Both the position numbers and the translations under genes were made by a program. Source: Rhodospirillales bacterium (GTDB taxonomy: Bacteria > Pseudomonadota > Alphaproteobacteria > Rhodospirillales > JANQFP01). From it: a stretch of DNA of 64,000 nt. Numbering within the stretch: the stretch's first letter is position 1; each line of letters starts with the position of its first letter. This document shows, piece after piece, positions 3,506-22,904 of the stretch. The notes below the pieces were generated by a model. It was not told the origin of the DNA and ran no database searches. It saw only the letters and a list, made by a program, of their open reading frames with translations. The DNA lies in NCBI GenBank assembly GCA_028277795.1, contig JANQFP010000242.1, forward strand, positions 1 through 64,000, written 5' to 3'.

Positions 3506-3544
3506 CGAGATCAACCGTTTAGACATCGAGGAAGGAAACGCAAA

Positions 3545-4830: not shown

Positions 4831-4861
4831 GCCGCGACCGAACGAAGACACGGACGCAAGG

Positions 4862-5998: not shown

Positions 5999-6014
5999 AT
6001 TAGTTAGGACTAAT
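5999..6014. promoter_or_regulatory. Perfect ATTAG-N6-CTAAT operator before the ArsR gene
   Basis: ATTAGTTAGGACTAAT is a perfect 6-4-6 palindrome that starts 12 bp downstream of a TTGACA -35 box (5982-5987) and covers the expected -10 position (TAGGAC, 6005-6010, at 17-bp spacing). It ends 26 bp before the arsR start. Overlap with the promoter fits autorepression by the ArsR-type regulator, which is an inference. Matching sites occur near 11428, 12229 and 22759. Confidence 0.7.
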
Positions 6015-6040
6015 GTTCGAGTTGCCGGGGCAGGCGCGTG

Positions 6041-6349
6041 ATGGTCATGGATATCGAACGTTTCGAAGACCAAGCGGTCGCCGCCAGCAACCTCCTCAAA
6101 GCCATGTGCAACGAGAACAGGTTGCTGATCCTGTGCCAGTTGGTGCGCGGCGAGAAGACCGTGGGCGAACTGGAGGACGTCATCGGCCTCAGCCAGTCGG
6201 CCCTGTCCCAGCACCTGGCGGTTCTGCGCCAGAACGGACTGGTCAAGACCCGCCGCAGCGCCCAGTCCATCTACTACTCGCTGTGCGGCGAAGAGCCCAA
6301 CGCGGTCATCGAGACCCTCTACGCCCTGTTCGCCGGCGAGCGCTATTGA
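6041..6349 (+). CDS. ArsR-family regulator of the SoxR/BigR/SqrR sulfur-sensing group
   Basis: This is a 102-residue winged-helix repressor. The body NRLLILCQLVRGEKTVGEL, LSQSALSQHLAVLRQNGLV and the wing TRRSAQSIYYSL match the sulfide/persulfide-responsive subgroup (BigR, SqrR, SoxR). In those proteins two cysteines 66 residues apart form a polysulfide bridge. Here Cys32 (in ILC) matches the first, but the residue 66 further on is Ala98 (LYALFAGE). Cys23 and Cys82 are also present. The ATG at 6041 is chosen; a GTG just before it is possible. It lies between the sox remnant and the TauE operon, and has its own palindromic operator. Confidence 0.85.
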   Translation: MVMDIERFEDQAVAASNLLKAMCNENRLLILCQLVRGEKTVGELEDVIGLSQSALSQHLAVLRQNGLVKTRRSAQSIYYSLCGEEPNAVIETLYALFAGERY

Positions 6350-6378
6350 CATCGCCGGCCCCTTCCTCTAGAAGTCCG

Positions 6379-6405
6379 TAAGTACTTATTTTTAAAATAT
6401 AAATT
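6379..6405 (+). promoter_or_regulatory. AT-rich promoter region with TAAGTACTTA palindrome before the TauE gene
   Basis: Just after arsR there is a 10-bp palindrome (TAAGTACTTA, 6379-6388) running into an AT-only stretch up to about 6404, very unlike the surrounding GC-rich DNA. It is the most promoter-like sequence between arsR and the TauE-type gene, whose start lies 180 bp further on. The half-sites are closer together than in ATTAG-N6-CTAAT, so it may belong to a different regulator. Confidence 0.35.
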
Positions 6406-6580
6406 CCGAACCGCCCAGACGCGCCTCATGGGGACGGGGGCGCTGCGGTCCGTTCCGGCTGATGGGAGGCGCCGTGCGAACGGTGGTGCCGGACCTCGAG
6501 GCCTATGACCGGCGCGGCGCCGGCGGTCGCCCTTGCCGCCGCAGCGGCGCCGCGCCCCGTCGGCGCTGAGAGCCCGGCCC

Positions 6581-7501
6581 GTGCAGATCTACCTGCCCAT
6601 CGCCGAGATGTCGGTGAACATCTTCCTGATCCTCGGCATGGGCGGTGCCGTCGGATTCCTCTCGGGCCTGTTCGGCGTCGGCGGCGGCTTCCTGATGACC
6701 CCGCTGCTGATCTTCCTCGGCATTCCGTCCCCCGTCGCCGTGGCCACGGAAGCCAACCAGATCGTCGCCTCCTCGGTCTCCGGCGTCCTCGCCCACTGGC
6801 GGCGCGGCAACGTGGATTTCCAGATGGGCTTCGCCCTGCTGGCCGGCGGCGTTCTCGGGTCGTCGGCCGGGGTGTGGCTGTTCACCGTGCTGCGCGGGCT
6901 CGGCCAGATCGACCTGGTGATCAAGCTGTCCTACGTGGTCTTCCTCGGCATCATCGGCAGCCTCATGCTGACCGAGGGCTTGCGGGCGGTGCTGCGCCGC
7001 CGGACCCAGCCGGGGTCCACCCGGCGGCGCCAGGCCGCCTGGGGCCAAAGGTTGCCGTTCAAGATGCGGTTCCGGCGGTCGCGGCTGTACATCAGCGTCC
7101 TGCTGCCCATCGCCATCGGGTTCGTGGTCGGCGTCCTGGCCGCCATCATGGGGGTGGGCGGCGGCTTCGTCATGGTGCCGGCGATGATCTACCTGCTCGG
7201 CATGCCGACCTCGGTGGTGGTGGGCACGTCCTTGTTCCAGATCATCTTCGTCACCGCCAACGTGACCATCCTGCAGGCGGTGACCAATCACACGGTGGAC
7301 GTGGTGCTGGCCATGCTGCTGCTGGCCGGCGGCGTGGTCGGGGCCCAGCTCGGGGCGCGGGCCGGCGGGCGGCTGCAGGGCGAGCAGATGCGGGTGCTGC
7401 TGGCGCTGATGGTCCTCGCGGTATGCGGCAAGCTGGCGTTCGACCTGGTGGCGACGCCGGCCGACATCTATTCCCTCGGCGGCGGGGTGGCGCACCAATG
7501 A
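6581..7501 (+). CDS. TauE/SafE-family sulfite or sulfonate exporter
   Basis: This is an integral membrane permease of the TauE/SafE (DUF81) family, whose members export sulfite, sulfoacetate or related organosulfur anions. The 306-residue product has the two family repeats: GFLSGLFGVGGGFLMTPLL near residue 25 and GVLAAIMGVGGGFVMVPAM near residue 185. The start is the GTG at 6581 giving VQIYLPIAEMSVNIF, which matches the usual beginning of this subfamily; the longer reading from 6533 adds an arginine-rich leader. It overlaps the next gene by four bases (ATGA). By inference it removes sulfite formed by sulfur oxidation. Confidence 0.85.
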   Translation: MQIYLPIAEMSVNIFLILGMGGAVGFLSGLFGVGGGFLMTPLLIFLGIPSPVAVATEANQIVASSVSGVLAHWRRGNVDFQMGFALLAGGVLGSSAGVWLFTVLRGLGQIDLVIKLSYVVFLGIIGSLMLTEGLRAVLRRRTQPGSTRRRQAAWGQRLPFKMRFRRSRLYISVLLPIAIGFVVGVLAAIMGVGGGFVMVPAMIYLLGMPTSVVVGTSLFQIIFVTANVTILQAVTNHTVDVVLAMLLLAGGVVGAQLGARAGGRLQGEQMRVLLALMVLAVCGKLAFDLVATPADIYSLGGGVAHQ

Positions 7502-8244
7502 AACGCTTGATCATGCGCGCCGGCCTCGTGGCATGGGTGCTGGCGGCGCTGCCGTCGGCAGCCGCGGCCACCGAGCTGGTGGCCGATCTTTCCGACCACC
7601 TGGTGGCCATCACCACCGGGTTCACCGGCTCGCGGGTGCTGCTGTTCGGCGCCACCGACGGCGCCGGCGACGTGGCGGTGGTGGTGCGCGGCCCCAACGT
7701 CTCCGAGATCGTGCGGCGCAAGGCGCGCTTCGCCGGGGTGTGGGTGAACGATGCCGAGATGATCTTCCATGACGTGCCGGCCTTCTATGCCTATGCCAGC
7801 ACCCGGCCCGCCCCCGAGTTCGTCTCCGAGTCCGTCGCCGCCCGCCACGAGATCGGCGTCCACCACGTGCGCATGCGGGCCCCGGACGCCGCCCCGGCCG
7901 AGGAGGTGGCGGCGTTCCGCGCCGCGCTCACCCGCAACAAGCAGCGCGCCGGCTTGTTCGCCACCGCCCCGACCAAGGTTTCTTTCCTCGGCAACCGGCT
8001 GTTCCGCACCGACGTGCACCTGCCCGCCAACGCGCCGGTCGGCACCTACCAGGTGCAGGTGTTCCTGGTGCGCGAGGGCGAGGTGGTGAGCGCCAACATC
8101 ACCCCCCTCGTGGTCAGCAAGATCGGCTTCGAGGCCGGGGTCAGCGATTTCGCCCGCCGCCATTCCCTGCCCTATGGCGTCCTTGCCATTCTGATCGCCG
8201 GGGTGGCAGGATGGCTGGCCAGCGTTGCTTTCCGCAGAGCTTGA
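7498..8244 (+). CDS. TIGR02186-family membrane-anchored periplasmic protein
   Basis: This 248-residue protein has a cleavable signal peptide (LVAWVLAALPSAAAA), a periplasmic domain beginning ELVADLSDHLVAITTGFTGSRVLLFG, and a C-terminal membrane helix (GVLAILIAGVAGWLASVAF) before a short basic tail. It belongs to a family found almost only in alphaproteobacteria and nearly always next to a TauE-type permease. That is the case here: its ATG overlaps the permease stop codon. The function is unknown; the obligate pairing suggests a periplasmic partner of the exporter. Confidence 0.8.
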   Translation: MKRLIMRAGLVAWVLAALPSAAAATELVADLSDHLVAITTGFTGSRVLLFGATDGAGDVAVVVRGPNVSEIVRRKARFAGVWVNDAEMIFHDVPAFYAYASTRPAPEFVSESVAARHEIGVHHVRMRAPDAAPAEEVAAFRAALTRNKQRAGLFATAPTKVSFLGNRLFRTDVHLPANAPVGTYQVQVFLVREGEVVSANITPLVVSKIGFEAGVSDFARRHSLPYGVLAILIAGVAGWLASVAFRRA

Positions 8245-8254
8245 GGGGGGCAGG

Positions 8255-8749
8255 ATGGCGGACGGCGAGACGGCGGCCGTGGCGGAAAAGGAACGCACGT
8301 TCCTCTGTATCGTCGACGAGAGAGAGGAATCCAGCCGCGCGCTCCGCTACGCCTGTCGGCGGGCTTGGCGCACCGGTGGCCGCGTCGCCCTGCTCTACGT
8401 CATCGAGCCGGCCGAGTTCCAGCACTGGTCGGCGGTCGGCAACCTGATGCAGGACGAGCGCCGCGAGGAGGCCGAGGAACTGGTCCAGGTGGTGGCTGCG
8501 GTGGTCCAGAAGAGCACCGGGCGCACCCCCGTCCTGCACATCCGCGAAGGCAAGCTCAATGACGAGCTCATCGCCCTGCTGGAAGAGGGGATGGGGATCT
8601 CGGTGCTGGTGCTGGCCGCGTCGCCGGAGGTCCAGAGGCCGGGCGGTCTGGTCCCCATCCTGGTCGAGAAGATGGTCGGCCGTCTGCGGGTCCCGGTGAC
8701 CATCGTCCCCGGCGACCTGAGCGACGCCGAGATCGACGCCATCACCTGA
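8255..8749 (+). CDS. Universal stress protein (single UspA domain)
   Basis: This is a 164-residue single-domain Usp protein. It has the N-terminal beta strand and acid (LCIVDEREESSRALRYACR), a middle REGKLNDELIALLEE segment and a C-terminal VPVTIVPG. The ATG at 8255 follows a strong GAGGGGGG ribosome site 10 bp after the TIGR02186 gene, so it is the third gene of the TauE operon. The G-2x-G-9x-G nucleotide-binding motif of ATP-binding Usp proteins is not obvious. The specific role is unknown. Confidence 0.8.
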   Translation: MADGETAAVAEKERTFLCIVDEREESSRALRYACRRAWRTGGRVALLYVIEPAEFQHWSAVGNLMQDERREEAEELVQVVAAVVQKSTGRTPVLHIREGKLNDELIALLEEGMGISVLVLAASPEVQRPGGLVPILVEKMVGRLRVPVTIVPGDLSDAEIDAIT

Positions 8750-8817
8750 CGCGGGGCGGTGACGCTCATGCGCCGCGCGGGCTTTGTCGGTGCGCTGGTG
8801 CGAGAGCCCGAGCCGGC

Positions 8818-9765: not shown

Positions 9766-9808
9766 GGTTCTTGCTCTCGTTGGCTTTGTGCGCCAGGCGC
9801 GGCGGCGC

Positions 9809-11353
9809 TCAGACCCCCAGCAACGGCCAGTAGATGGCCGCCGCCACCAGCATGATGATGGTGGAAGCAACCGCCATTTTCCAGCCCACTGTCAAGAAGT
9901 CTGTCGTCTTCAGGTATCCAGACGCGTAGACAATGGTGCACGCCGGCGTGCCGACCACGGTGAGGTAGGCGAAGGCCGACGAGATGGCGGTGATGAAGCC
10001 GATGACGATCGGGCTTTCCTGGGCCACCACCGCCATCTTGAGGACGATGGGGCCGAGGACGGCGACGGCGGCGCCGTTGGACATCATGTTGGTCACCCCG
10101 GTGGTGAGCACCGATACCGCGGCCCACAGACCGATGCCGCTGTCGGCCCCCAAGGGGGCGAGCAGGGCCAGGAAGCTCTCGGCGACCCACTTGGCGGCGC
10201 CGGTGTCCTTCATCTGCAGGCCCATGGAGATGGCCGCCGCATAGAGCAGCACGACGCCCCAGTTGACGCCGTTGTTGACGTCCTGCCAGCGCACCAGACC
10301 GATGACCAGGAAGGCGGCGGCGCCGAGGATGGCGATGGTGCCCATGCCATACTGATCGGAGATGAGGATCCAGCTCAGCAGGATCAGGAAGAACACGATG
10401 ATCGCCACCCAGTCGGAGCGCTTCATGGGCCCTTCCCGCTCCAACTGCTCGCGCAGCTTCACCACGGCCCGCGACAGGTTGTTGTACTCGGGCTTGAAGG
10501 TGAACAGCAGGATCATGGTGACGAAGGGGAGCTGAAGCAGGAACATCGGATAGGCGAAGATCATCCACTTCAGGTAGTCGATCAGGAACTTGTAGGTCTC
10601 CGGGTTGGTGGGGTCGTAGAAGAACTCCTTCCAATAGCCGACCATGATGGCGTTGCGGGCGCCGCCCGACGGGGTGCCGATGCCGGCCACCGAGCAGCCG
10701 TAGGAAATGGAGAACAACAGCACCGCGGCCAGGTTGCGCACCTTCTTGGGGTCGTCGGAGGTGAGCGTGATCAGGGTGATGCCCACGGGCAGCATCATGG
10801 CGGCCACCGTGTGCTCGCCGATGAATGAGGCCAACAGCCCCGACACCAGCGAGATGCCGAAGCAGATGCGCGACGTCTTGGTGCCGGTCAGGCGGACGAT
10901 GAAGAAGGCGATGCGCTTGTCCAGCTTCTGCTTGACCACGGCCACCGCCAGCATCAGCGAGCCCATGATGAACAGCACCGAGTCGGTCATCAGGCTCTTG
11001 GCCACCTGGGTGGAGTCGAGGCCCAACAGGAAGACCTCGGCCACGATGATCAGCAGGGCCACGGTCGGCAGCGGAACCGGCTCGGTGACGAACAGGATGA
11101 TGGCGACCACCGACATGGTGAGCACGGCCATGCCCTGCTGGGTCAGGCCCTCGGGCAGGGGCAGGTTGAGCATCACCGCGCCCACCAACATGGCGATGAA
11201 GAACCAGCGCTTTTCCCAGAAATAGAGGAGGTTGCGACGGAGACGCAGGCCCGCGACCTTGCGCTTGCCCCGCTCCACCATGCGTTGCTCGACAGCGTCG
11301 GCGACGGTGCTGTCGGCGGGCACGGTTGGGGCTTGCGAGCTGTCCGCGGCCAT
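9809..11353 (-). CDS. DASS/SLC13-family sodium-coupled anion transporter
   Basis: This 514-residue inner-membrane protein belongs to the divalent anion:Na+ symporter family (SLC13), whose substrates include dicarboxylates and sulfate. A roughly 45-residue cytoplasmic N-terminus leads into about a dozen helices. Family marks are GIGTPSGGARNAIMVG (about residue 225, the first substrate-binding hairpin region) and TNMMSNGAAVAVLGPI (about 415, the SNT-like motif), then VGTPACTIVYASGYL. It is transcribed with a tandem Usp gene and has a near-perfect ATTAG-N6-CTAAT operator 75 bp upstream. That link to the sulfur/Calvin regulon suggests sulfate or an organic acid as substrate; sequence alone does not decide. 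Confidence 0.85.
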   Translation of the reverse strand: MAADSSQAPTVPADSTVADAVEQRMVERGKRKVAGLRLRRNLLYFWEKRWFFIAMLVGAVMLNLPLPEGLTQQGMAVLTMSVVAIILFVTEPVPLPTVALLIIVAEVFLLGLDSTQVAKSLMTDSVLFIMGSLMLAVAVVKQKLDKRIAFFIVRLTGTKTSRICFGISLVSGLLASFIGEHTVAAMMLPVGITLITLTSDDPKKVRNLAAVLLFSISYGCSVAGIGTPSGGARNAIMVGYWKEFFYDPTNPETYKFLIDYLKWMIFAYPMFLLQLPFVTMILLFTFKPEYNNLSRAVVKLREQLEREGPMKRSDWVAIIVFFLILLSWILISDQYGMGTIAILGAAAFLVIGLVRWQDVNNGVNWGVVLLYAAAISMGLQMKDTGAAKWVAESFLALLAPLGADSGIGLWAAVSVLTTGVTNMMSNGAAVAVLGPIVLKMAVVAQESPIVIGFITAISSAFAYLTVVGTPACTIVYASGYLKTTDFLTVGWKMAVASTIIMLVAAAIYWPLLGV

Positions 11354-11427
11354 GGCCGGCTCCTGTGGGAATGGCGGTGTGTCGGGATCCCCGAAGACCG
11401 CTTCTAAGTTACACTATTCTTTCAGGC

Positions 11428-11443
11428 ATTAGAATACCTTAAT
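11428..11443. promoter_or_regulatory. ATTAG-N6-CTAAT-like operator before the DASS transporter
   Basis: ATTAGAATACCTTAAT matches the arsR and glpX operators in nine of ten arm positions (CTAAT reads TTAAT). It is in an AT-rich pocket 75 bp upstream of the DASS start on the minus strand and about 105 bp past the rpe stop. It is therefore best read as control of the DASS-Usp operon. Confidence 0.6.
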
Positions 11444-11548
11444 ATACGTGAGCGCGCCGCTTTCGCGATGGGATTCAACGGCGCGTTGAGGGCACCAGCA
11501 CCGTCGAAGACCGCCCGGTGCGGCGCCTCCCCTACCCCCGCGCCCGGC

Positions 11549-12196
11549 TCACTGGATGGCGCCGGTGATGGCTCCGATGGTGGCCCGGTAGTCGTCTCCG
11601 TTGAACACCGCGCTGCCCGCCACCAGGACCTCCGCGCCGGCGTCGACCACGGCCTTGGCGGTGTCCTTGTTGACCCCGCCATCCACTTCGAGCTCGATGG
11701 GCCGGTTGCCGATCATGCGCCGGATGCGGCTGATCTTCTCCAACTGGGCCTCGATGAAGGACTGACCGCCGAAACCCGGATTGACCGACATGACGAGGAT
11801 GAGGTCGAGCTTGTCGAGCACGTGCTCGACCACGGTTTCGGGGGTCGACGGGTTCAACGAAACCCCCGCCTTCTTGCCCAGGGACTTGATGACCTGGAGG
11901 CTGCGGTCGAGATGGATGTCGGCCTCCGCGTGCACGGTGATGATGTCGGCACCGGCGTTGGCGTAGTCCTCCAGATACGGCTGCGCCGGGTTGATCATCA
12001 GGTGGACGTCGAAGGGCAGCTTGCTGTAGGGGCGGATGCACTTGATGACCGGCGGCCCGAAGGTCAGGTTGGGCACGAAATGCCCGTCCATGACGTCGAT
12101 GTGGATGTAGTCGCATCCCGCCTCGTCGACGGCGCGGACCTCTTCGCCGAGACGGGCGAAGTCCGCGGACAGAATGGATGGAGCGATCTTGATCAC
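11549..12196 (-). CDS. rpe: Ribulose-phosphate 3-epimerase
   Basis: This enzyme interconverts ribulose 5-phosphate and xylulose 5-phosphate in the Calvin and pentose phosphate cycles. The TIM-barrel sequence has the family motifs [35 protein letters not shown] (metal ligands), [19 protein letters not shown] and EVDGGVN. The GTG at 12196 is preferred over an in-frame ATG at 12217: the family begins at this point, and a GGGAGGCGG ribosome site lies just before it. The product is then 215 residues. It lies downstream of cbbO on the same strand but has its own operator-bearing promoter region, so it can be expressed separately. Confidence 0.94.
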
Positions 12197-12228
12197 GGCC
12201 GCCTCCCAGGTTCGCATCGGGACAGTTC

Positions 12229-12244
12229 TTTAGATATCTCTAAT
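12229..12244. promoter_or_regulatory. ATTAG-N6-CTAAT-like operator before rpe
   Basis: TTTAGATATCTCTAAT matches the perfect operators in nine of ten arm positions and is itself centred on the palindrome AGATATCT. It lies 33 bp upstream of the rpe GTG and is flanked by the AT-rich run TAATATAATTAT (12241-12252), the likely promoter core. Its presence between cbbO and rpe gives rpe the same apparent control as the main Calvin operon. Confidence 0.6.
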
Positions 12245-12275
12245 ATAATTATGGGCGTTTGCATAGCGGGAATGC

Positions 12276-14636
12276 TTATCGGGTCAACGTGGCGAACACG
12301 GCTGGCAGACGTTCCGGGAGCTTCTCCACGTGATCGACGATGGAATAGCGGTTCTCGCCGAAGATGCGGGCCACGTAGCGGTCGGCCAAGGGATCCAGGG
12401 TCAGGCAGTAGGTGTAGATGCCGCGGGTGGCCAGGTCCTCGACCGCCTTCTTGGTGTCTTGGCGCAGGTACTGCGGGTCCCGTTCGTCGATGTCGGCCGG
12501 CTCGCCGTCGGTGATCAGCAGCACCAGCCGTTTCTGGGCCGGCTGCTGGCTCAGGTGCCACCCGGCGTGTCGCAGGGCCGCGCCCATGCGGGTCGACAGA
12601 CCCCCGGCCATCCCGGCCAGGCGCGCCTTGGGGCCGTCGTCGTAGGGCTGGTTGAAGTCCTTGAACCGGTAGTACTGTACGTCGTGGCGGCCGTCGGAGG
12701 CGAAGCCGTGCACGGCGAAGGGATCGCCGATGGACGAGATGGCCCAGGACAGCAGACCCGTCGCCTCGCGGGTGAGCGACAGCACCGTGGGACCGTCGGG
12801 GTCGTCCTTGTGGATGGGCTCGTTGGTGGATTCCGAGAGATCCAGCAGGATGACCACCGCCAGGTCGCGCAGGTGGCGGGTGATGCGGATGTTGATGCGC
12901 GGGTCGGGCATGATCCCGCGGCGGATGTCGATCATCGACCGGACGGCGGCGTTGAGGTCGATCTCCTCGCCCTCCTCGTAGCCGCGCCGGCGCACCACCC
13001 CCTGGGGCTGCAGCGCGTCGATGAGGTGGCGGATGCGCGAGGCGATGGGCCGATACTTGACCAGGATGTCGTCCATGGCCTCCGGGTCCCCTGCCCCCTG
13101 GCGGCGCTCGACGACGGTGGCCCAGTCCGGCCGGTGGAGCTGGATCTGGTAGTCCCATTCGTCGTAGTGGAAGGGCTCGGAGACCGGCTCCTTGCCTTCC
13201 ATCTCGTTGTAGGAGACGCCTTCGTCCTCGTAGGGGAACAGCTCGGTGCCGAGCACCCAGACCTCCTCGGCGTCGTCGCCGGCGGTCTCCACGTCGATCT
13301 CGTTGACGAACTCCATCAGGTTCACGTGGCGGCGCACCTGGCCGCGGCTGGCCGGCATGTAGTCGACCCCCCTCTCACGCCACAGCACCTCGTCGAAGTC
13401 CCAGACGAAGCGGTTGTCGTCCCGATACGGCACCGGGAAGTCTTCCAGCGCCCGCAGCGACGGCACGCCCACCCGGGCCGCCACCAGGTGATGGAAATCC
13501 ATGCCGGCGTCCCACGAGATGCGGTTGTCGCCCGCCGCGGCGGCCAGCCGTTCGCGGAAGGCGGCCGCCTGGGCCTGCAGGTCGGCGTCGGTGTCCCGAT
13601 AGCCGGGGTCGCCGAGGGCGCGGGCCATGCGCAGGTGCAGGTCCAGGGCCGGATGGGGCGCCTGCCCGCCGTCGGCCACCGAGGCGGCGGCGAAGAAGCG
13701 CCGCCAAAGCTTGGCCAGACCCGGGAAGTCCTGGGCCGCCAGGTGCTCGACCCGGGCATCCTCGAACAGGCCGATGGACGCCATGTGCACGGGCGTGAGC
13801 TGCTCGGCCGACATGGCGCGATCCGTGTACACCACGTGGGCGGCGCAATGGGCGGCGGCGGCGCGGTAGATCTCGATTCCCGAGATGCCGTCGACGTCGT
13901 CGAAGGCGTCGGGCAGGTGGATGCTCCAGTCCTCGATAAACGGCCTGAGCCCCTTCCGCGTCTCGTAGTCGCCCGATGTGGGGCGCATGAAGAAGGCCCG
14001 CCCCCACAGCGCCCGCAGATAGAAGTTCAGCTTGCGCTGGTTGTCGACGAACAGGGTGCCTCGGCGCTCCTTCTGCAGCACGCTCCGGGACGACTCGCTT
14101 TTCAGCCCGAAGTAGGTCATCTGGCCGTCCAGATCGCGGGCATGGGCCTGGGCCCCCCACAGCGCCCAGCGGCGCAGGCCGCCCAGGGTGAGCTTGCCGA
14201 GGAGCTCGTCCAGGTTCTCCAGCATCGGCCTGAGGCCGCGCGGCGCCTTGCCGGCAAGCTGATGGATCAGGCCGAGGAAGCTGCGCAGCACGTCGGCGTC
14301 GCCCAGGCGTTGGGCGGCCAGCGGCAGATTGGACAGGAGCAGCGACAGCACCGTGCCCGAGGTGTGCGACGAGAGCTTCATCAGGGCGTGGACGATGTCG
14401 GGCACCACGTCCTCGCCGACCTCCTTGGCGACGGACGGCAGCTCCTGGATGTAGGTGAGGATCAGATCCTCGCCACGGCCCAGCGAGCACAGGGCCTTGA
14501 TGCCCTCCAGGTAGTTGGCGAGGCCGCGCGGCGACATCACCCGGGCCGCCTCCTGGTAGGCGGAGTCCAAGGCCTGCACGTGCGGGTGATCGTCGCTGAG
14601 GCAGCTCAGATACTCGACGAACGCGACCCGGCCCAT
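12276..14636 (-). CDS. cbbO: Rubisco activase component CbbO (VWA-domain protein)
   Basis: CbbO is the von Willebrand factor A partner of the AAA+ motor CbbQ; together they remodel inhibited form I Rubisco. The 786-residue protein has a long helical N-terminal region and a C-terminal VWA domain. The metal-ion-dependent adhesion motif is visible as VVILLDLSESTNEPIH (DxSxS, about residue 600), with VLLITDGEPADIDERDP further on. The length matches the family. It starts 19 bp after cbbQ and is the last gene of the glpX-to-cbbO operon. Confidence 0.93.
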   Translation of the reverse strand: MGRVAFVEYLSCLSDDHPHVQALDSAYQEAARVMSPRGLANYLEGIKALCSLGRGEDLILTYIQELPSVAKEVGEDVVPDIVHALMKLSSHTSGTVLSLLLSNLPLAAQRLGDADVLRSFLGLIHQLAGKAPRGLRPMLENLDELLGKLTLGGLRRWALWGAQAHARDLDGQMTYFGLKSESSRSVLQKERRGTLFVDNQRKLNFYLRALWGRAFFMRPTSGDYETRKGLRPFIEDWSIHLPDAFDDVDGISGIEIYRAAAAHCAAHVVYTDRAMSAEQLTPVHMASIGLFEDARVEHLAAQDFPGLAKLWRRFFAAASVADGGQAPHPALDLHLRMARALGDPGYRDTDADLQAQAAAFRERLAAAAGDNRISWDAGMDFHHLVAARVGVPSLRALEDFPVPYRDDNRFVWDFDEVLWRERGVDYMPASRGQVRRHVNLMEFVNEIDVETAGDDAEEVWVLGTELFPYEDEGVSYNEMEGKEPVSEPFHYDEWDYQIQLHRPDWATVVERRQGAGDPEAMDDILVKYRPIASRIRHLIDALQPQGVVRRRGYEEGEEIDLNAAVRSMIDIRRGIMPDPRINIRITRHLRDLAVVILLDLSESTNEPIHKDDPDGPTVLSLTREATGLLSWAISSIGDPFAVHGFASDGRHDVQYYRFKDFNQPYDDGPKARLAGMAGGLSTRMGAALRHAGWHLSQQPAQKRLVLLITDGEPADIDERDPQYLRQDTKKAVEDLATRGIYTYCLTLDPLADRYVARIFGENRYSIVDHVEKLPERLPAVFATLTR

Positions 14637-14655
14637 GGCGACCGATCCCGCGCCG

Positions 14656-15486
14656 TCAGAAGTAGGTGCCGACGGCGGCGTCCAGGGTGTCGCGCATGTC
14701 CGGATCGTCGGTCAGCGGCCGCACCAGCGCCATCTTGCAGGCCGCCACCGGCTCGATGCCCTTGGCGATGAGCTGGCCGGCGTAGACCAACAGCCGGGTG
14801 GACATGCCCTCGTCGAGGCCATGGCCCTTGAGGTTGCGGGAGCGGTGCGCCACCTGAACTAACTTGCCCGACATGTCCGGGTCGACACCCGCCTCGTGGG
14901 CAACGATCTCGGCCTCGACCTCGGAATCCGGAAACGTGAAGTCGAGGGCGGCGAACCTCTGCTTGGTCGACTGCTTGAGGTCCTTCATCAAGCTCTGATA
15001 GCCCGGATTGTAGGAGATCACGAGCTGGAAGTCCGGATGGGCGGAGACCAGCTCGCCCTTCTTCTCCAAGGGCAGGTTGCGGCGATGGTCGGTCAACGGG
15101 TGGATCACCACCGTCGTGTCCTGGCGTGCCTCGACGACTTCGTCGAGATAGCAGATGGCGCCAATGCGGGCAGCCACGGTCAACGGGCCGTCCTGCCAGC
15201 GCGTGCCGTTGATGTCGAGCAGGAAGCGCCCCACCAGGTCCGACGCCGTCATGTCCTCGTTGCAGGCCACTGTGATCAGCGGCTTGCCGAGTTTCCACGC
15301 CATGTGCTCGACGAATCGGGACTTGCCGCAGCCGGTCGGTCCCTTGAGCATCACCGGTATGCGGGCGTCATAGGCGGCCTCATAGAGCCCCACCTCGTCG
15401 CCGACAGACCGGTAATACGGTTCCTGCTCGATGCGATATTGGTCGGCGTCGACTTCGTCGACGGTCTTTTTAGCGGCGTTTGCCAT
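14656..15486 (-). CDS. cbbQ: Rubisco activase AAA+ motor CbbQ
   Basis: CbbQ is a MoxR-type AAA+ ATPase that powers removal of inhibitory sugar phosphates from Rubisco. The 276-residue protein shows Walker A ([10 protein letters not shown], about residue 44), the substrate loop after [15 protein letters not shown], Walker B (AICYLDEV) and the sensor region [12 protein letters not shown]. The ATG at 15486 is chosen because longer readings extend into the cbbS spacer with no conserved sequence. It lies between cbbS and cbbO, the classic cbbLSQO order of form IA(q) Rubisco. Confidence 0.95.
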
Positions 15487-15581
15487 TGTCTTACCCCTGT
15501 TGCTGCTGGGGACTGGCTGACCCGCAAGGGGAGCGCCGGCCGGACCGCGTACAGCCCGGCCGGTCAGCGAGATCCCAGTAG

Positions 15582-15941
15582 TCAGGCCGTCATCGGACCG
15601 CGATAGATCACCATCGAGGTGCCCTGGGACTGGGCGTAGTTGTCGTATCCGATCAGGCGGACGTGGTGGCTCGGGTGTGCCTTGTGGCACGCCTCCGCCT
15701 CGTCGAGGATGCGGTCCACGTCGGTCTCACCGAACATCGGCAGCTTCCACATGTACCAATAGTGGTCGAAGGCGTTCTCAGGCTCCGTATGCTCGACGGC
15801 CGGGTTCCAGCCCTTGGAGACGATGTACTCCACTTGCTTGCGGATAGCGTTGGCGTCCATCTCCTCCAGGTAGGAGAAGGTCTCGAACTTCCGGCTGTTC
15901 GGATCCGAGAGGCTGGACGCGTAGTCTTTGACGTCACTCAT
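15582..15941 (-). CDS. cbbS: Rubisco small subunit, form I
   Basis: This is the 119-residue small subunit of form I ribulose-bisphosphate carboxylase. Typical stretches are [46 protein letters not shown] and [14 protein letters not shown]. The length and sequence fit the form IA class associated with cbbQ rather than carboxysomes; no carboxysome shell gene is nearby. It is 72 bp after cbbL on the same strand. Confidence 0.97.
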
Positions 15942-16013
15942 CGTTCTTTTTCCTGTCGTCTTATGGTGGGTGGCTCGCGCTCGAACCGCCTGCTCGTCGT
16001 CCGCTGCCAGGGC

Positions 16014-17432
16014 CTACCTATGGGCCACGTCCAGCTTGTCGACGGTGTCGAACTCGAACTTGATCTCCTTCCAGGTATCCATGGCCGCCTTGAGCTCGGG
16101 GCTGTGCCGGGCGGCGGCGGTCAGGATGTCCTTGCCTTCCTTTTCCACCTCGCGGCCCTGGTTGCGAGCCTCGACGCAGGCCTCGAGGGCCACGCGATTG
16201 GCGGCTGCACCGGCCGCGTTACCCCATGGATGGCCGAGGGTGCCACCACCGAACTGCAGGCAGGCGTCGTCACCGAAGATGGTGACCAAGGCCGGCATGT
16301 GCCAAACATGGATACCGCCGGAGGCAACCGGGAACACGCCGGGCATGGAACCCCAGTCCTGATCGAAGAAGATGCCGCGCGAGCGGTCTTCCTTGATGAA
16401 GCTCTCGCGCATGATGTCGATCCAGCCGAGCGTCGCCTCGCGGTCGCCCTCGAGCTTGCCGACGACCGTCCCCGAGTGCAGGTGGTCGCCACCCGACAGG
16501 CGCAAGGCCTTGGCCAGCACCCGGAAGTGGATACCGTGGCGCGGGTGACGGTCGAGAACGGCGTGCATGGCGCGGTGAATGTGCAACAACATGCCGTTGT
16601 CGCGGCACCATTGGGCGAGACCGGTGTTGGCCGTGAAGCCGCCGGTCAGGAAGTCGTGCATGATGATCGGTGCCTTCAGTTCCTTGGCGAACTCGGCGCG
16701 CTTGTACATCTCTTCCGGGGTCGGCGCGGTGACGTTGAGATAGTGCCCCTTGCGCTCGCCGGTTTCCCGCTCGGCCTTGTGGACGGCTTCCATGACGAAC
16801 TCGAAGCGGTTGCGCCAGCGCATGAACGGCTGCGAGTTGATGTTCTCGTCGTCCTTGGTCAAATCGAGACCGCCGCGCAGGCACTCATAGACGGCGCGGC
16901 CGTAGTTCTTGGCGCTGAGGCCCAACTTCGGCTTGATGGTGCAGCCGAGCAAGGCGCGGCCATACTTGTTGAACTTGTCCCGCTCGACCTGAATGCCGTT
17001 CGGCGGCCCGTTACAGGTCAACACGTAGGCGAGGGGAAAGCGCACATCCTCGAGGCGAAGGGCGCGCACCGCCTTGAAGCCGAAGACGTTGCCGACCAGC
17101 GAGGTGAAGACGTTGACGACCGAGCCTTCCTCGAAGAGGTCGATGGGATAGGCGATAAAGGCGTAATAGCACTCGTCGTCACCGGGCACGTCCTCGATGG
17201 CGTAGGCGCGGCCTTTGTAGTGATCGAGGTCGGTCAACAGGTCGGTCCACACGGTGGTCCAGGTCCCGGTCGACGACTCGGCTGCCACCGCGGCCGCCGC
17301 CTCCTCGCGCGGCACGCCCGGCTGCGGGGTGATCTTGAAGCACGCGAGGATGTCGGTGTCCGCAGGCGTGTACTCCGGCATCCAATAGGTTTCACGGTAT
17401 TCCTTCACACCGGCACTATATGTTTTCGCCAT
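16014..17432 (-). CDS. cbbL: Rubisco large subunit, form I
   Basis: This is the catalytic subunit that fixes CO2 onto ribulose 1,5-bisphosphate. The 472-residue protein has all expected active-site motifs: [18 protein letters not shown] (catalytic lysine), [17 protein letters not shown] (carbamylated lysine and metal ligands), [31 protein letters not shown] with loop 6, and [13 protein letters not shown]. Ending and length are normal, and with the cbbQ and cbbO neighbours the subtype is form IA(q). The gene is in mid-operon, 45 bp after fba. Confidence 0.98.
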
Positions 17433-17477
17433 CGTCTTCTCCTCTCAACTAGCCGCCTTGTCGGGTTTGCCCGCGCC

Positions 17478-18542
17478 TTAGTGCACGTGCGGATCGAGGC
17501 TGCCGGACGCGTACCGATCGGCCATCGCACTCAGGGGGATCGCCTTGATCTTCGACGCGTTGCCGGCCGTTCCGAACTGCTCGAACCTTTCTTCGCAGAC
17601 CTTCTGCATGGCCGCGCGGGCGGGCTTCAAATAGGCGCGCGGATCGAACTCCGCCTTCTTCTCGCTCAACACCTTGCGGATGGCGGCGGTGATGGCCATC
17701 CGGTTGTCGGTGTCGATGTTGATCTTGCGCACCCCGTTCTTGATGCCGGTGACGATCTCGCTGACCGGCACGCCGTAAGTCTGTGGCATCTCGCCGCCGT
17801 ACTGGTTGATCAGGTCCTGAAGCTCCTGGGGCACCGACGACGAGCCGTGCATCACCAGATGGGTGTTGGGCAGCTTGCCGTGAATGGACTTGATCACGTC
17901 CATGGCCAGGATCTCGCCGGTCGGCTTGCGGGTGAACTTGTAGGCCCCGTGCGAGGTGCCGATGGCCACCGCCAGCGCGTCGACCTTGGTCTTGGCGACG
18001 AAGTCGGCGGCTTGGTCGGGATCGGTCAGCAACTGGTCCTTGCTCAGGGTGCCCTCGAAGCCGTGGCCGTCCTCCTTGTCGCCCTGGCCGGTTTCCAGGG
18101 AACCGAGGCAGCCCAGCTCGCCCTCCACCGAGACGCCGACCATGTGGGCCATGTCGACCACCTTGCGGGTCACGTCCACGTTGTAGTCGTAAGACGCCGG
18201 GGTCTTGGCGTCCTCCTCCAGGGAGCCGTCCATCATCACCGACGAGAAACCGTTGGTGATCGCCGACATGCACGTCCCCGGGCTGTTGCCGTGGTCCTGG
18301 TGCATGCATACGGGGATGTCGGGATACATCTCGATGGCCGCCTCGATCAAGTGGCGCAGCACGGTGTCGTTGGCATAGGAGCGGGCGCCGCGGCTGGCCT
18401 GCATGACGACCGGGGAATCCGTCTTCTCGGCGGCGGCCATGATCGCCAGCATCTGTTCCATATTGTTGATGTTGTAGGCCGGCACGCCGTAGCCGTTCTC
18501 CGCGGCGTGGTCGAGCAACTGTCTAAGAGATACCAATGCCAT
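17478..18542 (-). CDS. fba: Class II fructose-bisphosphate aldolase
   Basis: This zinc-dependent aldolase condenses triose phosphates to fructose 1,6-bisphosphate, and can also make sedoheptulose 1,7-bisphosphate, in the Calvin cycle. The 354-residue protein shows [15 protein letters not shown] (metal-binding His), the [17 protein letters not shown] loop, [33 protein letters not shown] and [11 protein letters not shown], followed by [15 protein letters not shown]. It lies between tkt and cbbL, in the usual CbbA position. Confidence 0.96.
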
Positions 18543-18641
18543 AGCTCGGTTTCCTTAACCCTTTTCTTTATACCGTGCCCTTATTGCCCTGCTCCGCCGG
18601 CGGCCGGGGGAACCCAACCGCCGGTTATTCCCTCAGTCACT

Positions 18642-20681
18642 CTACATGCGGGCCTTGGCCGCTGCGACAACGTTTTCCGCTGTGATTCCGAAGTGCTCGA
18701 ACAGCGTCGGCGCCGGTGCCGAGGCCCCGAACCCGGTCATGCCGACGAAGGTTCCGTTCTCGCCAATATAGCGCTCCCAGCCCTGGACCAGGCCCGCTTC
18801 CACGCCCACCCGGACGCTCCCCGGGCGCAGCACCATGTCGCGGTAGCGCTCGCTCTGCATGTCGAACAGCTCCCAGCACGGCATGGACACGACGGCCGTG
18901 GGAATGCCCTCGGCTTCCAGCGTCTCGCGGGCCTCGACGGCGATGGACACCTCGGAGCCGGTGGCCATCAGCGTCACCTTGCGCTCTTCGTAGCCGGCTT
19001 CGGCCTCCATCAGCACGTAGGCGCCGCGGGCACACATGTTCTCGGTCTCCAGGGTCTTGCGCACCGCCGGGACGGCCTGCCGGGTCAGCACCAGAGACGT
19101 CGGGATGTCGTTCTGGATCAGTGCGATGGCCCAGCATTCAGAGGTCTCGACGGCGTCGGCCGGCCGCAGCACGTGCATGTTGGGGATGGCGCGCAGGGAG
19201 GCCAGGGTCTCCACCGGCTGGTGGGTCGGGCCGTCCTCGCCGAGGCCGATGGAATCGTGGGTCAGCACGTAGATCACCCGCAGTCCCATCAGCGCCGACA
19301 GGCGCATGGAGCCCCGCATGTAGTCGGCGAAGACCAGGAAGGTGCCGCCGTAGGGGATGAGCCCCCCGTGCAGGGCGATGCCGTTCATGATCCCGGCCAT
19401 GGCGTGCTCGCGCACGCCGTAGCGGAGGTAGCGCCCGGAGAAGTCGCTGGCGGACAGGTCCTTCATGCCGCGGGCCTTGGTGTTCACCGAGGCGGTGAGG
19501 TCGGCGGACCCGCCGATCATCTCGGGGAAGGCGGCGGTGAAGATGGCCAGGGCCTCACCCGAGGCGAGCCGGGTCGGCATCTTCGGCTGCTCGTTGGCGA
19601 ACCGGTTCTTGAGGTCGGACAGCGCCTGCTGCCAGCCCGGCGCCAATTGGCCGGCCATGACCCGCTTGAACTCGGCCCGCTTCCACGGATCGATGTTGTC
19701 CAGGCGCTCCTTCCACGCCTCCCGCTCCTTGGTCCACCGCTTGCCGATCTTGCGCCAGGCGTTGAGGATGTTGTCCGGGACGACGAAGGGCTCGTGGGGC
19801 CAGTTCAGGTTTTCCCGCGCCCCGGCGACCTCGGCCTCGCCCAGCGGCGCGCCGTGGGTGGCTTCGGTGCCGGCTTTGGTGGGGGCGCCGTAGCCGATGA
19901 TGGTCTCGCAGCAGATCAGCGACGGCGTGCAGGAGTTGCGCGCGTACTCGATGGCGTCCTCGACCGCCTTGGGGTCGTGGCCGTTGATGCACTGGACGTC
20001 CCAGCCACTGGCCTGGAAGCCGGAGATGTGGTCGTGGATCTGGGTCAGCTCCGTGGGGCCGTCAATGGAGATGGAGTTGTCGTCCCAGAACACGATCAGC
20101 TTGTTTAGCCCCAGGTGCCCGGCCAGGGACACGGCCTCGTAGCTGATGCCCTCCATGAGGCAGCCGTCGCCAGCGATGACGTAGGTGAAGTGGTTGACCA
20201 CGTCGTCGCCGTAGCGGTCGTTGAGCACCTTCTCGGCCAGCGCCATGCCGACGGCGTTGGTGATGCCCTGACCCAGGGGGCCGGTGGTGGTCTCGATGCC
20301 CGCCGCTTCGCCGTACTCCGGGTGGCCGGCGCATTTCGAGTGCAGCTGGCGGAACGTCTTGATCTCGTCGATGGTCATGTCCTCGTACCCGGTCAGGTAG
20401 AGGAGCGAGTACAGCAGCATGGACCCGTGACCGGCCGACAGCACGAAGCGGTCGCGGTCGTCCCACTTGGCGTCCGCCGGGTCGAACTTCAGGTACTTGG
20501 AGAACAGCACTGTCGCCACGTCGGCCATGCCGAGCGGTGCGCCGGGGTGCCCGGACTTCGCCTTCTCGATCGCGTCCATGGACAGGAAGCGTATGGCGTT
20601 GGCCATGTCGTCGTGGGTGACAGGGACCTTCCCGGTCTCCGTTTCGGAGCGCTTGGCGACTTTTGGCTGGGCAGCCGGCAT
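18642..20681 (-). CDS. tkt: Transketolase
   Basis: This thiamine-diphosphate enzyme transfers two-carbon units in the Calvin and pentose phosphate cycles. The protein (679 residues from the ATG at 20681) has SGHPGAPLGMADVATVLF, the ThDP site GDGCLMEGISYEAVSLAGH, and later HDSIGLGEDGPTHQPVE. The start is chosen because AGGAGAAGAACG lies directly before it and because the longer reading overlaps the prk stop. It lies between prk and fba in the Calvin operon. Confidence 0.97.
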   Translation of the reverse strand: MPAAQPKVAKRSETETGKVPVTHDDMANAIRFLSMDAIEKAKSGHPGAPLGMADVATVLFSKYLKFDPADAKWDDRDRFVLSAGHGSMLLYSLLYLTGYEDMTIDEIKTFRQLHSKCAGHPEYGEAAGIETTTGPLGQGITNAVGMALAEKVLNDRYGDDVVNHFTYVIAGDGCLMEGISYEAVSLAGHLGLNKLIVFWDDNSISIDGPTELTQIHDHISGFQASGWDVQCINGHDPKAVEDAIEYARNSCTPSLICCETIIGYGAPTKAGTEATHGAPLGEAEVAGARENLNWPHEPFVVPDNILNAWRKIGKRWTKEREAWKERLDNIDPWKRAEFKRVMAGQLAPGWQQALSDLKNRFANEQPKMPTRLASGEALAIFTAAFPEMIGGSADLTASVNTKARGMKDLSASDFSGRYLRYGVREHAMAGIMNGIALHGGLIPYGGTFLVFADYMRGSMRLSALMGLRVIYVLTHDSIGLGEDGPTHQPVETLASLRAIPNMHVLRPADAVETSECWAIALIQNDIPTSLVLTRQAVPAVRKTLETENMCARGAYVLMEAEAGYEERKVTLMATGSEVSIAVEARETLEAEGIPTAVVSMPCWELFDMQSERYRDMVLRPGSVRVGVEAGLVQGWERYIGENGTFVGMTGFGASAPAPTLFEHFGITAENVVAAAKARM

Positions 20682-20715
20682 CGTTCTTCTCCTGGTTCGA
20701 GGTTGGACGCGCGGA

Positions 20716-21654
20716 CTAGATGGCGTGGTGGCCAAGCGCCGCCTTGACCATGTGGTAGGTGATCAGCAACTGGGACAAAGCGAGCGGATGGGACATGCCC
20801 AGCTGGTTCTGGTCGTCGGTGAACCGCCCGAGGTTCTCACGCAGATGCTGGGCCTCGGGAATCAGATTCCACAGCAGGTCTTCCATGGTCTTGGCGCGCC
20901 GGTCGTCGATATCGCCGGCGATGTCCAGCACGTCCACCGGCTTGCCGTCCACGTCGCGCGCCAGCTCGAGCCGCAGGCCCTTGTTGGCCCCCGCCTCCAG
21001 CACCGGCGTCAGGTCCGGGTGCGGCAGGGTCGGGCGCAGGGTATGACGCACGTTCAGGTGGGCGCCGGTCTCCTCGGCGTTGCCTTCCGGCGGATAGAAC
21101 TTGACCACCATGTCGGCGAAGGTGCGCTGGGGCTGGATGAAATCGACGCTGTCGGTCACCCGCTTCTCCAGGGACGACAACACCTGTTCGCGGGTGTAGC
21201 CGCGCTTGCCGCAGTCACGCTGGATCTTCCAGCGGACGCGCAGGTCCTCCTCGGGCTCCAGGTACACCTTCACGTCGTAGGCGTCGCGCATGGTGCGGGT
21301 GGCGTAGCCGAGCAGACCCTCGAGGATGATGTACTCCTTGGGCTCCACGTACTCCGGCGCATCCAGGGTGCCGCCGTGATGATTGTAGATGGGTTTGAGG
21401 ATGGGCTTGCCATCGCGCAGCAGGTGGATGTGCTGCTCCAGGATGTCGATGTAGTTGCCGGCCGGATCGAGCGCCGAGATGCCGTTCTCGGCCCGCTGCT
21501 TGCGGTCGAAGCGGTGATAGTCGTCGGTGCAGATGGTCACCGTCCGATCGGGTCCGAGAACCTGGGCGATGCCGGCCGAAAGGGTGGTCTTTCCCGCCGC
21601 TGAATCGCCAACAATGCCGAGGATTATGGGTCTGCTGATACGTTTAAATGGCAT
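20716..21654 (-). CDS. prk: Phosphoribulokinase
   Basis: This enzyme phosphorylates ribulose 5-phosphate to the Rubisco substrate and is a diagnostic enzyme of the Calvin cycle. The 312-residue bacterial-type PRK has a P-loop near the start (GIVGDSAAGKTTLSAGIA), TICTDDYHRFDRKQRAENG, the loop EPKEYIILEGLLGYATR, and KVYLEPEEDLRVRWKIQRD. It lies 23 bp after glpX and 34 bp before tkt. Confidence 0.97.
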   Translation of the reverse strand: MPFKRISRPIILGIVGDSAAGKTTLSAGIAQVLGPDRTVTICTDDYHRFDRKQRAENGISALDPAGNYIDILEQHIHLLRDGKPILKPIYNHHGGTLDAPEYVEPKEYIILEGLLGYATRTMRDAYDVKVYLEPEEDLRVRWKIQRDCGKRGYTREQVLSSLEKRVTDSVDFIQPQRTFADMVVKFYPPEGNAEETGAHLNVRHTLRPTLPHPDLTPVLEAGANKGLRLELARDVDGKPVDVLDIAGDIDDRRAKTMEDLLWNLIPEAQHLRENLGRFTDDQNQLGMSHPLALSQLLITYHMVKAALGHHAI

Positions 21655-21677
21655 GGATGTGACTCCCGCGTTTTACG

Positions 21678-22676
21678 TCAGGCCGGGTTTGTCCGACGGT
21701 GAAGGGTGGTGAGGATCTGGCGCTCGCCCGTATTTCCTGCAATCAGCAGGGTCTCCGTGCGCTCGTCGGTCTTGGTGCGTTTGACTCCCTTGAACAGCAG
21801 GCCGGTGGCGATGCCGGTGGCGACGAAGTAGATCTCCTCCGTGCGCACCAGGTCGTCGACCGACTGCCAAACGGTCGTGTCCAGCCCCGCCTTTTCGATT
21901 TCCGCCTTCTCGGTGGCGAGCTGGGGATCGAGCCGGCTGAAGTAGACGCCGCCCATGGCCCGGATGGCGCAGGCGGCGATCAGCCCTTCCCGGGTGCCGC
22001 CGGTTCCCATCAGGGCGTCGATGCCGGAGTCCGGGATGGCCGCCATCAGCGCGCCGGCCACGTCGCCGGCCGGATAGAGCGCCACCTTGGCGCCGGCCTG
22101 GCGGATCTGTTGAACCAACTCGCGATGGCGCGGCTTCTCCAGCACGTAGATGGTGAGTTCGGGCAGGGGCTTGCCGAGGACGCGGCTCAGGGTGTTCAGG
22201 CGCTCCTCGACCGGGGCGTCTGGGTCCACCTTGCCTTCGGCGGCCGGCGGCGCCACGAACTTGTCCATATAGAAGGACGGCCCCGGATCGGCCATGGTGC
22301 CCTCGGGCGTGAGCGCCATGACCGCCATGGCGTTGGTCATGCCCTTGGCTAGGTAGGAGGTGCCTTCGGCCGGGTCGACGGCGATGTCGAAACGACGGGT
22401 TCCGTCGCCGGCGCCAACCTGGGCGCCGGTGTCCAGGTCGCGCACCGTACCGTTGGCCCCCTCGGGGCGGTCGCCGACCACGACGCGGCAGGCAATGGGG
22501 AACTTGTTCAGCTCTTCGACCATGGCCTGGGTCGCCGCCTTGGCGCTGCGCCCGCGCTCCGAGCTGCCCAGCCACTCGTAGGCGGCCCGGGCCCCGGCTT
22601 CGGTCACCGTACGCAGAGCGTAGACGAACCCGGGTCCTTCGCAGATGGAGACTGGACTTGCCTTGCCGGCAATCAT
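21678..22676 (-). CDS. glpX: Class II (GlpX-type) fructose-1,6/sedoheptulose-1,7-bisphosphatase
   Basis: This lithium-sensitive-fold phosphatase hydrolyses fructose and probably sedoheptulose bisphosphate, regenerating Rubisco substrate. The 332-residue protein has the GlpX marks: AKAATQAMVEELN (acidic start of the site), DIAVDPAEGTSYLAKGM (metal-binding DPxEGT) and TGGTREGLIAACAIRAMGG. It is the first gene of the Calvin operon, downstream of a promoter that carries a perfect ATTAG-N6-CTAAT operator. A GlpX enzyme replaces the class I CbbF common in many autotrophs. Confidence 0.95.
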   Translation of the reverse strand: MIAGKASPVSICEGPGFVYALRTVTEAGARAAYEWLGSSERGRSAKAATQAMVEELNKFPIACRVVVGDRPEGANGTVRDLDTGAQVGAGDGTRRFDIAVDPAEGTSYLAKGMTNAMAVMALTPEGTMADPGPSFYMDKFVAPPAAEGKVDPDAPVEERLNTLSRVLGKPLPELTIYVLEKPRHRELVQQIRQAGAKVALYPAGDVAGALMAAIPDSGIDALMGTGGTREGLIAACAIRAMGGVYFSRLDPQLATEKAEIEKAGLDTTVWQSVDDLVRTEEIYFVATGIATGLLFKGVKRTKTDERTETLLIAGNTGERQILTTLHRRTNPA

Positions 22677-22750
22677 TGTTCGCTTATCCCCCGCATCGGT
22701 CTTCCCGCCCGCGCCGTTGACACCAAGGCGTCTCCGGGCGACCGGGCCGA

Positions 22751-22779
22751 ACTATAGCATTAGAATTGCCTAATGGAAT
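22751..22779 (-). promoter_or_regulatory. Calvin operon promoter with operator in its spacer
   Basis: On the minus strand a -10 box TATAGT (22756-22751) lies 17 bp downstream of a weak -35 ATTCCA (22779-22774). The spacer is almost entirely the palindrome ATTAGGCAATTCTAAT (22774-22759 on this strand), a perfect ATTAG-N6-CTAAT. A protein bound there would block polymerase access. The promoter is about 75 bp before the glpX start. Box assignment is by eye. Confidence 0.55.
22759..22774. promoter_or_regulatory. Perfect ATTAG-N6-CTAAT operator before the Calvin operon
   Basis: ATTAGAATTGCCTAAT has both five-base arms identical to those in front of the ArsR gene at 5999, with the same 6-bp spacing. 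It is the only strong AT-rich element in the 227-bp gap between the NarL-type regulator and glpX. This points to direct control of glpX-prk-tkt-fba-cbbLSQO by the ArsR-type protein. Confidence 0.7.
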
Positions 22780-22850
22780 ACCCGCCCGGGCGGGTAGGCA
22801 GATTCTTTGGAGTGGGACCGCCCTACCCGCGCGGGTGGGTGAGCTGTGTC

Positions 22851-22904
22851 ATACCGGCGCGCGAAGCGCCATCGCGGTGCGTCGGAAAGCCCGCGCGGCG
22901 GTAT
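22851..22904. repeat. REP-like hairpin, copy A
   Basis: This 54-bp element begins ATACCGGCGCGCGAAGCGCC and ends GCCCGCGCGGCGGTAT. The outer 13 bp of the two ends pair with one mismatch, so it can fold into a long hairpin. It begins at the stop codon of the NarL-type gene. Related copies follow the stop codons of two unrelated genes, at 32886 and 47471, marking a dispersed intergenic repeat that probably acts as an mRNA 3' end structure. Confidence 0.65.

Follow-up and report, generated by a model that had tools for sequence, protein, structure and literature searches.

A shared DNA site at sulfur genes and some Calvin-cycle genes apparently marks the targets of one branch of SqrR/BigR-group ArsR repressors

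The question raised by this stretch of Rhodospirillales DNA (64 kb of contig JANQFP010000242.1; the full stretch is termed the window) is whether an ArsR-family repressor encoded beside sulfur-oxidation genes (P0001) shares a palindromic operator, ATTAG-N6-CTAAT, with a Calvin-cycle gene cluster, as was claimed in an original prediction made from the sequence. Scored over its 10 arm positions, the motif occurs perfectly before arsR and before glpX and with a single mismatch before rpe and the gene of a DASS transporter (Table 1), just as predicted. The whole-window scan yielded no additional match at up to two mismatches, and the numbers of window matches with 0, 1, 2, 3 and 4 mismatches are 2, 2, 0, 24 and 234. 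The gaps to the start codons span 11-82 bp, and all four sites therefore lie upstream of genes. A fifth, weaker site that had been placed upstream of a sox remnant (2994-3009) carries 4/10 mismatches, is one of the 234 such matches and was rejected as noise, so that the claim of five upstream sites stands for four. The glpX palindrome had also been said to fill the 17-bp spacer of a plausible promoter; a consensus scan of 22640-22960 identified no sigma-70-like promoter, and this element was rejected (by eye, TATAGT adjoins the palindrome, with a poor -35 hexamer).

At the rate observed in the rest of the genome, 0.045 exact sites are expected per 64 kb (P = 0.001 for at least two), which agrees with the assertion that a perfect match is expected far less than once per window, and the 16.8-kb span holds four sites at ≤1 mismatch versus 0.07 expected at the same rate (P = 9e-7); these P values are post hoc because the window itself prompted the question. 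The genome as a whole (4.38 Mb, 253 contigs) contains five exact sites versus none of the reversed pattern, which served as control motif for all genome counts. Beyond those at arsR and glpX, the exact sites are located before an HlyD-RND pump (C159), before DsrE2-Tll0287-TusA genes (C179) and beside a family-less gene (C242). One-mismatch sites number 22 versus 10 controls, with 0/22 inside called genes versus 4/10 for the control sites; they include two flanked by a TauD-like gene and sulfite/nitrite reductase-like genes (C5), one before a cysteine synthase with rhodanese genes (C18), one flanked by the genes for ATP sulfurylase and a bactofilin (C161) and one before a NiFe hydrogenase operon (C156).

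Among 60 genomes of the same order, the excess of exact sites follows the presence of one branch of ArsR paralogues: the 14 genomes that encode a member of it (carriers) hold 77 exact sites versus 7 controls, whereas the 46 non-carriers hold 53 versus 50 (Mann-Whitney P = 3e-7), and the carriers minus the window genome retain 72 versus 7. The motif shows a peak that is specific to a spacer of 6. Exact sites were read one by one in ten carriers, leaving out G012, G020 and G041 (10 exact sites together), and 0/62 lie inside called genes; this result and that for the one-mismatch sites above depend on gene calls made with our own codon-bias script. The genes that stand behind sites in at least two genomes include arsR (6 genomes), a YgaP-like membrane protein gene (5), HlyD and RND genes (4), the TauE exporter gene (4), genes for DsrE2, an MBL-fold protein, rhodanese and YeeE/YedE (3 each), and those for TusA and thioredoxin (2 each). 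The sulfur genes behind sites comprise DsrE2-TusA, YeeE/YedE, TauE, MBL-rhodanese, SoxY-SoxZ-SoxA-like genes (preceded by an exact site in G035), a flavocytochrome c sulfide dehydrogenase region, cysteine synthase-rhodanese, ATP sulfurylase and sulfite/nitrite reductase-like genes.

The best solved relatives of P0001 are HlyU (5e-24), SqrR (3.3e-22), BigR (4e-20), NolR (2.2e-19) and YgaV (1e-17). Some ArsR match is present in 58/60 of the same-order genomes, where Cys-type paralogues are widespread, and from these 75 paralogues, a part of all ArsR matches there, were fetched. Fourteen of them, the window's included, constitute one branch (support 99/92, and 87 without the C-terminal tail), a label that was set after residues and some sites had been seen, while the genome counts were taken over all 60 genomes. 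All 14 members retain the proximal cysteine of helix 2 (Cys30 in P0001, counted from MDIER at 6047), are without the distal cysteine of helix 5 (Ala96 in P0001) and, as residue 59 in the recognition helix, have Val or Ile; this residue is Arg or Lys in 57/61 non-branch rows. P0001, with three cysteines in all, lies within the 99/92 branch and shares the residue at 59 and the lack of the distal cysteine; a tail cysteine at least two residues past the distal position, present in 10/14 members, is not found in it. Within 250 bp upstream, 10/14 branch genes have a site at ≤1 mismatch (henceforth a close site), seven of which are exact, and a fifteenth member (G066, with Ile59) has an exact site 68 bp upstream. 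When the 73 scorable proteins were divided by the distal cysteine (of the 75, one truncated and one with a shifted tail were dropped), a close site was detected at 10/17 Cys-less versus 3/56 Cys-bearing ones. Beyond the order, 385 genomes sampled across the class were searched; the 17 best proteins among them all bear Arg59, and a close site was found in 1/17.

A link to the Calvin cycle is apparent in the carriers. Phosphoribulokinase is present in 14/14 of them versus 11/46 others, and the branch arsR and rpe lie on one contig, 1.7-9.1 kb apart, in 10/14. With G066 added, the DNA upstream of the response regulator gene that precedes glpX/prk, plus the gap between this gene and glpX/prk, contains a site at ≤1 mismatch in 5/15 carriers (the window, G066, G012, G056 and G024); 29 permuted motifs gave a mean of 0.10 and a maximum of 1, no other spacer gave more than 1, and among loci of another or unclassified kind such a site was present in 1/41. 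When 52 named loci of this gene order were taken together, 4 had a site at ≤1 mismatch versus a permuted mean of 0.55 (maximum 2), but at two mismatches 15 versus 8.6, where 2/29 permuted motifs were as high and spacer 3 gave 3. Before rpe, a site at ≤1 mismatch was observed in 2/14 carriers (exact in G035) and one at two mismatches in 7/14, versus 0.07 and 1.24 for permuted motifs. Additionally, a second phosphoribulokinase-family gene, that of G024, is preceded by an exact site at a distance of 370 bp. The sequences demonstrate the sites, their tie to one branch and that they recur upstream of sulfur as well as Calvin genes, and they support the repressor-Calvin link well, the window genome being the clearest Calvin case with its exact site at glpX. 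The extension to the whole Calvin operon, as originally proposed, goes too far: the sites stand at glpX, rpe and the DASS gene, and a site before RubisCO genes was rejected, as there is none before rbcL or among 13 RubisCO loci of relatives (a count that omits two partial loci of G012, and in which the G058 contig starts close to the gene).

The reading that we consider probable is that ATTAG-N6-CTAAT is the operator of this distinct ArsR branch, encountered here in alphaproteobacteria of the Rhodospirillales type. A dimeric ArsR would occupy the palindrome at or close to promoters, thereby repressing arsR itself and a number of genes for sulfur trafficking and sulfur oxidation; in several lineages, the window's included, it would also repress the glpX-prk-led operon and rpe. 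We infer such binding and repression, and a joint release by which sulfur oxidation and CO2 fixation would be turned on together. Going by the regulon, the likeliest signal would be reduced sulfur. As the standard two-cysteine switch is missing, sensing would have to rely on the one cysteine that is conserved, in concert with other cysteines, or else the response would be indirect.

Several observations weigh against this reading. Four branch members are without a close site, and a quick tree including G066 excludes the long-branched G012 protein from the branch. Three non-branch paralogues (L247, L243 and L246), with Arg59 and both cysteines, have the motif at 0-1 mismatch 24-45 bp upstream, and Val59 alone is therefore not what defines the operator. 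In the window's genome, many one-mismatch sites lie beside genes without an evident sulfur role (uracil-DNA glycosylase, SpoU methylase, ribosomal protein L28, DUF294); several of these sites are probably due to chance, and about half of all 22 may be, given the 10 controls. On the Calvin side, the glpX-prk promoter region of 10/15 carriers has no site at ≤1 mismatch, the RubisCO loci have none, and the site at the G024 operon, situated between a molybdopterin oxidoreductase gene and the operon, could serve either. When complete Calvin loci are counted, the excess is less marked (7 sites versus a permuted mean of 2.3 and maximum of 9); this enrichment was set aside, being weaker than at the promoters and partly derived from neighbouring sulfide-oxidation genes, which some of the near-Calvin sites more likely serve. 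Finally, deletion of soxR in Bradyrhizobium diazoefficiens left the expression of cbbF and cbbL unchanged (PMC5748708, section 3.4).

The lack of a close site at the operon in 10/15 carriers and at the RubisCO loci, and the soxR result, would equally be expected if the branch and its operator were real for sulfur genes while the sites at the window's Calvin genes were incidental or served other functions, CO2 fixation being controlled by the conserved response regulator or by a CbbR-type activator. Such a division, which we regard as unlikely though not negligible, would also suit the occurrence of the LuxR-type response regulator before the operon across the order and the response of the B. 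diazoefficiens cbb genes to CbbR (section 3.4 of the same article). It fits poorly with the 13.7-kb cluster of the window, where three sites at ≤1 mismatch stand versus 0.07 expected (P = 5e-5), with the 5/15 carriers versus 0.10 for permuted motifs and 1/41 other or unclassified loci, and with the finding of rpe sites in two lineages.

A different division of labour, in which the sites are bound mainly by a canonical two-cysteine paralogue of the same genome (G000:C159:7928-8218, tail LYC) acting as the true persulfide sensor in place of P0001, seems quite improbable. This protein does possess both switch cysteines and a mostly identical recognition helix, a two-mismatch variant of the palindrome lies upstream of its gene, and the exact site before the RND pump is ~5 kb away; however, genomes with canonical paralogues only show no motif excess (the 53 versus 50 given above), canonical proteins mostly carry Arg or Lys at position 59, and the Cys-bearing genes have a close site in just 3/56 cases, with two having the SqrR-type ATTC-N8-GAAT instead. 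That the palindromes are merely chance AT-rich matches in intergenic DNA was already disfavoured and is hardly credible. When two mismatches are allowed, 13/100 shuffles of the window reach at least four matches, which makes the window count by itself unimpressive, the one-mismatch count of the genome is just 22 versus 10, and the weak site at 2994 was indeed noise; yet the excess of exact sites is limited to carrier genomes, the same genes recur behind sites across families, and the peak is specific to spacer 6.

The branch repressor may be compared with known ArsR systems. P0001 resembles SqrR, BigR, SoxR and YgaV in its ArsR fold, high sequence similarity and helix 2 proximal cysteine, and the site-linked genes include those for rhodanese, an MBL-fold protein, the TauE exporter, a YgaP-like membrane protein and DsrE2-TusA as well as sox genes; as in the SqrR/BigR/SoxR group, the predicted operators stand at sulfur-oxidation or detoxification genes. 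It differs from these repressors in lacking the distal cysteine, in having Val for Arg59 and in counting Calvin genes among its likely targets. According to PMC5823870 and PMC10451225, the distal cysteine is used by BigR, SqrR and SoxR: in BigR, Cys108 becomes persulfidated and bonds with Cys42 (PMC5823870), and in Hyphomicrobium denitrificans SoxR a sulfur bridge joins Cys50 and Cys116 (PMC10451225). Since the distal cysteine is missing from P0001, the known sulfane-sulfur mechanism cannot work unchanged. The designation of P0001 as a typical sulfane-sulfur sensor is not supported, the distal cysteine being lost and the tail cysteine-free; its membership of the SqrR/BigR group and the sites at sulfur genes are supported. 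The shared operator tying a sulfur-type ArsR to Calvin genes gains from its recurrence with the branch in relatives, and the sulfur-sensor label is weakened.

The operator, judged by its sequence, fits the consensus of NolR and not that of SqrR. The SqrR site deduced in PMC9774250 is ATTC-N8-GAAT, of which the best match upstream of the window arsR has two mismatches. NolR of rhizobia, a sequence relative of P0001, has the consensus (A/T)TTAG-N9-A(T/A) as given in PMC8960804 and PMC12445080, and all 4/4 window sites conform to it on at least one strand; PMC8960804 describes NolR as cysteine-free, in contrast to the three cysteines of P0001, and NolR targets nodulation and other genes whereas P0001 belongs to a sulfur/Calvin setting. 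The SoxR and sHdrR proteins of H. denitrificans are, as described in PMC10451225 and PMC12423496, alphaproteobacterial ArsR repressors encoded beside sulfur-oxidation genes, with two paralogues per genome; there, the Cys50-Cys116 sulfur bridge by which they act sets them apart from P0001, and the organism is an obligate organotroph (PMC12423496), so that no Calvin link exists in it.

As SoxR of B. diazoefficiens has no effect on cbbF or cbbL, a link between an ArsR protein and the Calvin cycle would be new, and in the open-licence literature of PubMed Central the searches made found no report in which Calvin genes were targets of an ArsR-type repressor. Control by CbbR, a LysR-type activator, likewise concerns glpX/prk-type operons of autotrophs; here, by contrast, the operon-adjacent gene encodes a LuxR-type response regulator, and the control proposed in addition is an ArsR repressor. 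The way in which autotrophs adjust CO2 fixation, a costly process, to the supply of their inorganic electron donor is usually ascribed to CbbR and redox two-component systems. A bolder version of our preferred reading, which we put forward tentatively as possible but rather doubtful, is that the branch changed operators (from ATTC-N8-GAAT to ATTAG-N6-CTAAT, with Val in place of Arg59), abandoned the two-cysteine switch and, with a new mode of sensing, directly controls sulfur oxidation and the entry to the Calvin cycle (glpX-prk, rpe) in one regulon. If true, this would constitute a direct wire between sulfur status and CO2 fixation, with the repressor on both sets of promoters. Magnetotactic bacteria that are in culture (Magnetovibrio blakemorei; Magnetospira) are among the carriers, which makes the proposal testable.

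Table 1. Predicted operator sites and genes of the window
Feature	Position	Strand	Remarks
Operator, exact ATTAG-N6-CTAAT	5999-6014		26 bp before arsR ATG (6041); probable autoregulatory site
Operator, exact	22759-22774		Gap between response regulator and glpX, 82 bp before glpX
Operator, one mismatch	12229-12244		11 bp before rpe; exact site precedes rpe in G035
Operator, one mismatch	11428-11443		74 bp before DASS transporter; one-mismatch site before DASS in G012 too
ArsR-family repressor P0001, SqrR/BigR/HlyU/NolR group	6041-6349	+	Pfam HTH_5 1.5e-15; proximal Cys present, distal Cys lost, Val59 in recognition helix
TauE/SafE sulfite exporter	6581-7501	+	Pfam TauE 1.9e-50; relatives behind exact site in 4 carrier genomes
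Alph_Pro_TM membrane protein	7498-8244	+	Pfam 1.5e-78
Universal stress protein	8255-8749	+	Pfam Usp 3.2e-12
LuxR-type response regulator, directly upstream of glpX	22904-23527	-	Pfam GerE, Response_reg; same gene order in relatives
glpX, class II fructose-bisphosphatase, first Calvin-cluster gene behind operator	21678-22676	-	Pfam FBPase_glpX 3.9e-96
prk, phosphoribulokinase	20716-21654	-	
tkt, transketolase	18642-20735	-	TIGR00232
fba, class II aldolase	17478-18542	-	TIGR01521
rbcL, RubisCO large subunit	16014-17432	-	
rbcS, RubisCO small subunit	15582-15941	-	Pfam RuBisCO_small 6.9e-39
cbbQ-type AAA protein	14656-15486	-	Pfam CbbQ_C 2.4e-34
Probable cbbO, VWA domain protein	12276-14636	-	VWA matches just below Pfam cut-off; name inferred from adjoining cbbQ
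rpe, ribulose-phosphate 3-epimerase	11549-12217	-	Pfam 4.1e-83
DASS transporter (sodium:sulfate symporter family)	9809-11353	-	Pfam Na_sulph_symp 1.8e-59

The Calvin-cycle cluster is arranged on the minus strand in the order response regulator, site, glpX, prk, tkt, fba, rbcL, rbcS, cbbQ, probable cbbO, site, rpe, site and DASS transporter. In many Rhodospirillales a LuxR-type response regulator (60-73% identical) is encoded directly before glpX-prk-tkt-fba (window 22904-23527; L190-L209, L250-L329), and it is a candidate regulator of the Calvin operon in place of CbbR. In Magnetospira-type genomes, the Calvin operon is immediately followed by genes for flavocytochrome c sulfide dehydrogenase, and these are preceded by copies of the motif whose arms are exact or nearly so (L204:10292-13195, L203:5106-5146, L208:4980-4996).

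The arsR gene is preceded by soxY, soxZ and a CcdA-like gene and followed by the TauE/SafE exporter gene. Beside the intact soxY and soxZ, the stretches at 3090-3520 and 4402-4966 are soxX- and soxA-like with frame shifts and stops, representing either decay or sequencing error, and the soxX-like open reading frame at 3127-3519 has no Pfam match. Elsewhere in the genome, an identical one-mismatch site, spacer included, is located at the ends of two contigs (G000 C25:56-71 and C184:18669-18684), which are perhaps one locus split by the assembly.

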